42,843 nucleotides of DNA from a virus, in IMG/VR virus record IMGVR_UViG_3300023700_000002, positions 1 to 42,843 of that record; one strand, written 5' to 3'. The notes beneath the pieces are model-generated. The model was not told the origin of the DNA, ran no database searches, and saw only the letters and a list, made by a program, of their open reading frames with translations. Numbering within the stretch: position 1 is the first letter of the stretch; each line of letters opens with the position of its first letter. Below, piece by piece: positions 22,490 to 24,267 of this stretch. Both the position numbers and the translations under genes were made by a program.

Positions 22490-23515
22490 TTACCCTGCAT
22501 TCTGCCCCTTCTTGGCGACCTTTGCCGGGTCAAGGTTGGTGTACCGTTTGAGGTTGCGCCAATCCTTGTGGCCCGTCACCACGGCGACCTCGGGCACGTT
22601 CCAACCGGCCTCAAACAGCGCACTCGTCGCCTCGTGGCGCAGGTCGTGCAGCCGCAAATCCTTAATGCCGCAGGCGTCACAAGCCCACTTGAAATACTTG
22701 GACGCGGTACCGGGTTCATGGGGGAAGATTCGTACATCTACACGCCGCTGGCGCATGATCACGTCGAGCGAATCGCCCACCAAAGGCACAAGCTCATGGT
22801 TGCCGACCTTACGGCGCGGGTCTTTGCGGTCGCGCACCAAGATCAGCCGCTTTTCAATGTCCAAATCTGACCACAGGATGCGGAATACCTCGCCGCGCCG
22901 CAGGGCGCATTGCATGGCGACCTTGACCACATCGACCATGGGCAGGCCGTATTGTGGGTTGGCGGCGAACCACGCGAACAAACGCCCGATTTCGTCAGCC
23001 GTTGGGCGTCTGTCCCTCTCCCCACCCTGCCCAATGAGGTGCAGGTGATGCAGCAGAGGCCTCGCCTTGCCGATGCAATCCGGTAGGTCAAGATCGAGCA
23101 GGCTTGACGTATGCCGGATGACGGTACCGAGCTTGGAAATCTCCATGTTGACCGTGTAGCCGCCGACACCGGATTTTCGGCGGGCCTGAGCGTAGGCCAC
23201 GATGCGCTGCGATTTGAGGGTGGCGACCTTTTCGCCGGGGAAGGCTGCAGCCAGGTTGTTGAGCATGTAATGCTCGTTGGACTTCGGATTGATCGGACGG
23301 CCTGACTTTTCCCGCGCTTGCCGATAGTGGGCAATCATGTCCGACACGGTGACTTCGGACGGTTTGAGGGGCTTTCCCTTGTCGAAATCGGCCTCAACCT
23401 TTCGCGCCCATTTCAGCGCCTCGGCCCGAGTAGGAAATGACTGTGCTGTGCTAGCATGACCCGCCTTACGGACCTGCGCACGCCACAGGCCCTTCACTTT
23501 CAGGATTGACGCCAT
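22490..23515 (-). CDS. int: Tyrosine site-specific integrase
   Basis: A 341-residue tyrosine recombinase. N-terminal arm-binding domain (WRAQVRKAGHASTAQSFPTR), core-binding domain (about 55-150), catalytic domain with Arg in ALRRGEVFRI (about 203-212), HDLRHEA (about 290-296, H-x2-R), TGHKDW (about 313-318) and the nucleophile Tyr in KRYTNLD (about 322-328). It integrates the phage at the attachment site just upstream. The ATG at 23515 abuts a 19-base palindrome and has no Shine-Dalgarno, so its translation is probably controlled. Confidence 0.95.
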   Translation of the reverse strand: MASILKVKGLWRAQVRKAGHASTAQSFPTRAEALKWARKVEADFDKGKPLKPSEVTVSDMIAHYRQAREKSGRPINPKSNEHYMLNNLAAAFPGEKVATLKSQRIVAYAQARRKSGVGGYTVNMEISKLGTVIRHTSSLLDLDLPDCIGKARPLLHHLHLIGQGGERDRRPTADEIGRLFAWFAANPQYGLPMVDVVKVAMQCALRRGEVFRILWSDLDIEKRLILVRDRKDPRRKVGNHELVPLVGDSLDVIMRQRRVDVRIFPHEPGTASKYFKWACDACGIKDLRLHDLRHEATSALFEAGWNVPEVAVVTGHKDWRNLKRYTNLDPAKVAKKGQNAG

Positions 23516-23534
23516 AACTGCTACGGTAGCAGTT
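23516..23534. promoter_or_regulatory. Perfect 19-base palindrome touching the int start codon
   Basis: AACTGCTAC-G-GTAGCAGTT, nine-base arms with one central base, ending at the base next to the int ATG. A further direct copy of GGTAGCAGT is at 23537-23545, 12 bases from the one inside the palindrome, and CGTAGCAGT occurs near 23732. It may be an operator, an integrase or excisionase arm site, or an mRNA hairpin that hides the int start. Confidence 0.8.
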
Positions 23535-23563
23535 TTGGTAGCAGTGAGGCAAGTTTGCGTTGA

Positions 23564-23591
23564 TTGTCGTAAATCGAAGTGCTGATATAAG
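23564..23591 (+). promoter_or_regulatory. Promoter reading toward the attachment core
   Basis: TTGTCG (23564-23569), 16-base spacer, TATAAG (23586-23591), close to the bacterial consensus. The next feature downstream is not a gene but the tRNA-like attachment core about 65 bases away, in the same orientation. After integration it could drive the interrupted host tRNA. Confidence 0.5.
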
Positions 23592-23656
23592 GCCCGGATT
23601 TATTTGACGTTTACCACCAGAGCCAACAGGCGGCAACCACCGCCAACCCCATCACC

Positions 23657-23678
23657 TCCCCGTAGTTCAATGGATAGA
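23657..23678 (+). other. Candidate attP core: 5' end of a tRNA-Arg-like sequence
   Basis: TCCCCGTAGTTCAATGGATAGA matches, as I recall it, the acceptor/D-arm start of betaproteobacterial tRNA-Arg (CCT anticodon) genes. The sequence after it does not continue as a tRNA, so this is a fragment, as expected at an attachment site next to int. Using the 5' end rather than the 3' end of the tRNA is less common. Confidence 0.5.
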
Positions 23679-23925
23679 TGGAGCGCTTAACCGGTTGATT
23701 CGTCACGTAGCGCGGCTCTCAGATAGCAACTCCGTAGCAGTGGTTGATGGTGCAGGGGATGATCCTGCGGCATCGTGTGGGGCCGGTACTGTTTTCATTG
23801 ACCCGTTGGCGTACTCGCGTCGCTTCCACACGTTCGGATAGCCCGATCCAGCTAGTTTGTTTCGCGCCTCCGAGCGTTTCCGGTCACTCGGTCTTGCTAT
23901 TGATTTCGCTTATCACCATCACGAC

Positions 23926-24006
23926 TGAGGACTACTCGCATAAAGCAGCGTTGTCCGTGTAGCTCTGCATAAAAGCAGGACGGCGCTAACCCGTCCCTAG
24001 TCCTCA
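23926..24006. other. 81-base structured element, candidate ncRNA
   Basis: Outer nine-base inverted repeat TGAGGACTA (23926-23934) and TAGTCCTCA (23998-24006). Inside are hairpins CTGC-ATAAAA-GCAG and GGACGG-CGCTAAC-CCGTCC, and a near-direct repeat CGCATAAAGCAG/TGCATAAAAGCAG. It lies between attP and the small HTH gene and codes for nothing evident. It may be a structured RNA or a recombination-associated DNA element. Confidence 0.45.
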
Positions 24007-24027
24007 TGCGTCATGGCGCTGCGAAAA

Positions 24028-24078: not shown

Positions 24079-24267
24079 ATGATTTCGCTCAAAGACGCGG
24101 CAAAAAAACTAGGGGTGACTGAGCGCCGAATGCGCACGCTATGTGCCGAAGGCCGCGTGGTGGGTGCCAAGAAGATCGGGGGCAGTTGGATTTTGCCAAC
24201 TTCCCCGCAAGTGGTCGCGGGTGCGCGTGTGCGCCCCGGAATATTGAAGTTCAAGCGGAAGAAATAA
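24079..24267 (+). CDS. Small MerR/excisionase-type HTH protein
   Basis: A 62-residue protein with the ATG after AAAGGAAAGCA. The first 45 residues are an HTH_17/MerR-type winged helix: ISLKDAAKKLGVTERRMRTL (2-21), then GRVVGAKKIGGSWILP. The tail is basic. Proteins of this size and fold serve as excisionases or as small regulators; lying beside attP and int, it is a good candidate for the recombination directionality factor. Its promoter carries the CCG-N4-CGG palindrome shared by two early promoters, so it could also be their regulator. It converges on the Rz gene, six bases away. Confidence 0.75.
   Translation: MISLKDAAKKLGVTERRMRTLCAEGRVVGAKKIGGSWILPTSPQVVAGARVRPGILKFKRKK

Follow-up and report, generated by a model that had tools for sequence, protein, structure and literature searches.

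The dusA-associated integrases enter the 5' end of dusA, with putative promoters both before and after integration (Farrugia et al. 2015, PMC4482086). One tRNA-Arg match, in Pseudogulbenkiania, was found in that survey (PMC4482086). Classical tRNA-targeting phages usually carry the 3' half of the tRNA gene, so the tRNA promoter is kept, and in the tRNA-dependent lysogeny of mycobacteriophages the whole tRNA is carried by the phage (PMC10865867). A divergent order of int and tRNA is found in two rare classes, together under 8% (PMC2951348).

The DNA analyzed here is a viral record from IMG/VR, 42,843 b in length, and this whole stretch is referred to as the window. We consider it highly probable that its attP serves for integration at nt 1–14 of the tRNA-Arg(CCU) gene, that the native promoter is thereby displaced to attL, and that a phage-borne promoter drives the tRNA. 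As for the dusA-associated integrases, related tyrosine integrases are used and the 5' part of the target is replaced by element DNA. However, the target is tRNA-Arg(CCU) (36 of 41 genome loci), and only the distant L117 and L118 are found at dusA. The substitute promoter also differs, in that it is predicted from conservation in many lineages and, in one clade, would lie antisense within int. The locus shares with classical tRNA-targeting integrases a tyrosine integrase, a partial tRNA in attP, and an intact tRNA at one junction, but here it is the 5' end that is carried and the promoter that is lost. The order of int and tRNA falls in the rare divergent classes of PMC2951348. As in the tRNA-dependent mycobacteriophages, the phage would offset the disruption of a host tRNA gene that is used as its attachment site; in contrast to them, no tRNA gene was found by ARAGORN over the whole window, and a promoter is apparently supplied instead. 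A literature search of open-licence papers gave no match in which such integration is accompanied by a promoter that is antisense or serves as a replacement.

Attachment site of the window and of related prophages

The features of the window that bear on integration are as follows.

22490–23515, minus strand: int, which encodes a tyrosine integrase and is oriented divergently to the tRNA half-site (Pfam Phage_integrase, 3e-18; PHROG integrase, 9e-39)
23518–23544, unstranded: P-side arm-type repeats, CTGCTACG at 23518 and GGTAGCAG at 23525 and 23537
23656–23678, plus strand: attP core, tRNA-Arg(CCU) nt 1–23
23656–23669, plus strand: part shared by attL and attR in relatives (nt 1–14), from junction comparison
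23722–23740, plus strand: P'-side arm-type sites, GATAGCAA at 23722 and CGTAGCAG at 23733
24079–24267, plus strand: small P'-side HTH gene, perhaps for an excisionase (PHROG excisionase, 1e-4; HTH_17, 4e-5, below Pfam's cut-off)

The sequence CTCCCCGTAGTTCAATGGATAGA occurs once in the window, and all 23 of its bases are identical to nt 1–23 of tRNA-Arg(CCU), in agreement with the original prediction that the core matches the 5' part of a tRNA-Arg gene. The distance from this core to the start of int is 140 bp. The encoded protein is a tyrosine recombinase, with a Phage_integrase domain and the R, K, H, R, and Y residues; the catalytic-type residues R206/R207, K231, H290, R293, and Y325 are invariant or nearly so in the alignment. 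Repeats of TGTAGCA or GTATCAC are found in relatives at the position equivalent to the P-side arms of the window. On the P' side the TAGCA units of the window have offsets of +67 and +78 relative to the start of the core. These offsets recur in 13 relatives, with only the first unit present in one of them. An Rfam scan of the attP region gave zero matches.

Related integrases were collected from 38 viral contigs and 41 bacterial-genome loci. An intact tRNA-Arg(CCT) was found on the strand opposite int, 99–285 bp away, in 36 of the 41 genome loci, as had been anticipated for prophages with this integrase, and the same divergent order was found in 20 of the 38 viral contigs, which overlap partially. 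The five remaining genome loci include an unintegrated attP form (L110) in addition to the two at dusA, and several metagenomic contigs are attP forms that lack the tRNA body. The tRNA pattern occurs once per genome in the 32 matching genomes of 60. When 19 of the genomes with a related integrase were searched for the core, 13 proved to have two copies of tRNA nt 1–14 on a single contig, separated by 8–54 kb; four others have copies on separate contigs or a single copy, and two have no match to the search pattern.

At these junctions attR consists of phage leader ahead of the tRNA, and attL of native upstream DNA. The crossover of classical tRNA integrases was reportedly placed by Williams in 2002 at the anticodon loop, the T loop, or the 3' end. 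None of these places is used here, where attL and attR have only nt 1–14 of the tRNA in common. Because the cores are paired and, in most cases, the native promoter is left behind at the distant junction, insertion into the 5' end of the tRNA with loss of its promoter is well supported for the family. The expectation that integration cuts the tRNA off from its own promoter was thus borne out, since attL holds the native promoter in most relatives examined. The possibilities of relatives integrated elsewhere and of a chance core were both checked and neither was upheld. Judged by sequence comparison, the attachment site of the window is genuine.

Promoter candidate of the window

Two further features of the window concern the promoter.

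23564–23591, plus strand: promoter candidate TTGTCG-16-TATAAG, the best site in the leader, with the extended -10 TGA at 23583–23585
23441–23452, plus strand: counterpart of the antisense promoter of relatives, int codons 22–25 AGC ACA GCA CAG, reading CTGTGCTGTGCT and without the motif (codon alignment)

The original prediction had placed a near-consensus promoter ahead of the core. Its hexamers (TTGTCG, 23564–23569; TATAAG, 23586–23591), the 16-bp spacer, the orientation toward the attP core, and a TG are all present. The term near-consensus was too strong: the candidate matches 9 of 12 consensus positions, is without the conserved final T, and has a score that is equaled by 18% of dinucleotide shuffles of the 139-nt leader and 31% of those of the 354-nt region. 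A strict promoter scan did not report it. The claim that it serves no phage gene is uncertain, as transcription from it in circular phage DNA would cross attP in the direction of the weakly excisionase-like gene at 24079–24267.

The antisense motif found in int of relatives (see below) is absent from the window int in the codon alignment, despite the position of this integrase inside the clade that carries it (support of 99/96 for a set of 21). The nearest integrase in the tree is from Pandoraea, with weaker support (93/75). DNA-level comparison with phage records gave no close relative of the window. Of two pattern scans for relatives, one was empty and the other returned a phage that is unrelated and encodes a tRNA-Arg(TCT) itself. 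These searches likewise gave no relative close enough for the leader site TGATATAAG to be compared for conservation. Because its score alone is not above chance, no such relative was found, and the sites of relatives lie elsewhere, this particular promoter is not supported in the form first proposed, even as the principle of a phage-borne replacement is upheld by the relatives.

It is slightly more probable than not that the candidate arose by chance, or drives rightward transcription of phage genes in circular DNA, and that in lysogens of the window phage the tRNA is transcribed from elsewhere or by read-through. The shuffled scores, the excisionase-like gene downstream on the same strand, and the missing antisense motif all favor this explanation. 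It is opposed by the rank of the candidate as the top score in the leader, in the correct orientation and with an extended -10 TG, and by the 70 nt between its -10 and the tRNA, which falls within the range of native tRNA-Arg promoters. That TGA-TATAAG at 23583–23591 is the tRNA promoter in these lysogens is put forward as a tentative assignment, slightly less likely than not.

Promoter-like elements in relatives

Empty sites mostly have TTTGNTATACT, which in most lies 50–130 nt ahead of the tRNA, and an element of the TTTGNTATACT type is found at attL, the far end of the prophage, in most lysogens examined. The 13-mer TTTGNTATACTCT (...TATACTCT) is rare, with about two copies per 7–10 Mb genome, and a reversed control gave one match in 61 genomes. 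Among 65 sampled 13-mers, 61 precede a tRNA (41 Arg-CCT, 14 Ser-GGA, and 6 Phe-GAA); three of the other four are at att cores and one is unassigned. One genome (G002) has just two copies of the 13-mer, one at attL and the other on the antisense strand of int. In Burkholderia and Paraburkholderia TTTGNTATACTCT appears to mark promoters that belong almost exclusively to tRNA genes. At L177, L178, L301, and similar loci it stands 22–26 nt ahead of tRNA-Ser(GGA) and tRNA-Phe(GAA).

TTTGNTATACT is also located antisense within int of clade 1, which is made up of prophages of Burkholderia, Paraburkholderia, Caballeronia, Pandoraea, and Collimonas. Membership of this clade was defined by AGTATANCAAA in int codons 21–24, which the window int lacks. 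In clade 1 these codons read AGT ATA NCA AAR, and the other strand reads YTTGNTATACT toward the tRNA; its interpretation as an extended -10 presumes ordinary sigma-70 recognition in the hosts. No variation is seen in AGT, ATA, or the CA of NCA, either among 31 representatives (<90% identical) or among 14 (<80%), and just AGT and ATA are codon-invariant among 158 (136) amino-acid-conserved degenerate columns, counts that overstate the independent cases because related sequences are not independent. Both codons are rare, with ATA at 6–7% of Ile codons and AGT at 11–13% of Ser codons. The residue encoded by NCA varies among Ala, Ser, and Thr, and its variable base coincides with the N of TGN. Across 1.57 Mb of phage-locus strands, the int site accounts for 65 of 70 matches to the 11-mer. 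The motif belongs to the phage, because it is carried by two viral contigs in the attP form (L006 and L037).

A second kind of element was found in the short leaders of clade 2. A -10-like hexamer lies 12–30 nt ahead of the tRNA in 22 of 35 distinct short leaders (shuffles: mean 5.2, maximum 11), an enrichment that is partly post hoc, because the zone was widened after the positions had been seen in a first zone of -32 to -16 (weaker combined p of 3e-4), and a count that, like those for the codons, includes related sequences. The best hexamer of the entire leader is inside the 12–30 nt zone in 28 of the 35. Both kinds of promoter-like element coexist in two Pandoraea leaders (L089 and L090), since these hold the antisense int motif and TAGAAT just ahead of the tRNA.

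The antisense site was also found where no integrase is detectable. Among 53 tRNA-Arg promoters without a detectable adjacent int, 14 have flanks that resemble antisense int (shuffling p ≤ 0.01; about 0.5 expected), compared with 0 of 19 Ser or Phe promoters. At L314 and L321, 67 and 63 of 80 flank bases match int, which is no longer detected, and decay is seen in reading frames such as AQSIAKTF*AKAAE of L164. These results suggest that the promoter is retained after loss of int. Some host tRNA promoters appear to be derived from phage, because decayed prophages retain the int-derived site. The Burkholderia-type leaders at 50–75 nt are without resemblance to antisense int and, since that similarity is absent, no phage origin is claimed for them.

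Proposed mechanism and alternatives

In the proposed mechanism, a temperate phage integrase would recombine within nt 1–14 of the tRNA-Arg(CCU) gene. After integration the native promoter would be found at attL, the end of the prophage away from the tRNA, whereas phage leader DNA would precede an otherwise intact tRNA at attR. Both arrangements are seen in the sequences of relatives. A phage-borne promoter would then drive the tRNA. In clade 1 the substitute would be an extended -10 promoter of the host tRNA type, antisense in int codons 21–24; in clade 2 it would be a -10 element 12–30 nt ahead of the tRNA; and for the window only, it might be TGA-TATAAG at 23583–23591. It is likely that the 5' end of int is doubly coded, specifying the integrase and, on the opposite strand, a promoter of the host tRNA type that becomes the tRNA-Arg(CCU) promoter of the lysogen. 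The promoter would outlive decay of the prophage because the host depends on it, and therefore some tRNA-Arg promoters of Paraburkholderia would be domesticated pieces of int.

A replacement promoter may not be needed at all, if tRNA-Arg(CCU) is dispensable or is transcribed by read-through out of phage genes, in which case the sites would be incidental. AGG can often be read by tRNA-Arg(UCU) through wobble, which lends this alternative some plausibility. It is nonetheless improbable, given the position-specific -10-like sites directed toward the tRNA in two clades and their retention in relics. Transcription of int cannot enter the tRNA, because int points away from it.

The conserved stretch of int could instead be bound by a recombination protein, or reflect constraint on the protein itself (Ser-Ile-x-Lys), and it does lie near the arm-type sites and inside the conserved N-terminal region. 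However, codons rather than residues are fixed, the free base is the N of TGN even as Ala, Ser, and Thr are exchanged, the 13-mer stands ahead of phage-free tRNA-Ser and tRNA-Phe genes, and the stretch is retained where int has decayed. This makes such an origin very unlikely. A chance match of the core to the tRNA can be dismissed with near certainty, in view of an identity over 23 bases located next to int, where a core is expected, the conserved arm geometry, and the many related prophages at exactly the tRNA-Arg(CCU) site.

If the replacement mechanism is correct, it would show how a tRNA gene can be entered at its 5' end by an integrase and still be expressed, and would add a place beyond the usual crossover positions. 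It would also provide a clear example of a promoter that overlaps protein-coding sequence, and a route by which prophages leave behind regulatory DNA needed by the host. Loss of such a prophage promoter is predicted to cost the host its tRNA-Arg(CCU).

Several minor observations were made. In L132, L133, and L137 the attL copy lies behind a further leader of the phage type instead of the native element, suggestive of elements inserted in tandem at one tRNA. The long leaders (alignment A2 of 26; e.g., L085:1785–1915) have conserved GCTTC-ATTTAGG-GAAGC and AAGGC...AGCC blocks; a conserved leader RNA structure, suspected by eye, was discarded when RNAalifold gave no pairs on 26 leaders. Terminators adjacent to P' were also seen by eye in relatives and are not relied on, because the scan gave one match toward int (L006) and none there in L126. 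Rfam matches beside integrases at L017:1434–1550 and L107:308–382 are to the ALIL pseudoknot (strong) and PtaRNA1 (sub-threshold), respectively. In the window, a strong imperfect inverted repeat lies at 23908–24022, between attP and the excisionase-like gene. It gave no match in Rfam, its predicted folding is stronger than that of shuffled sequence for either strand (z of -2.5 and -3.3), and the region includes a minus-strand hairpin that resembles a terminator (23997–23977).
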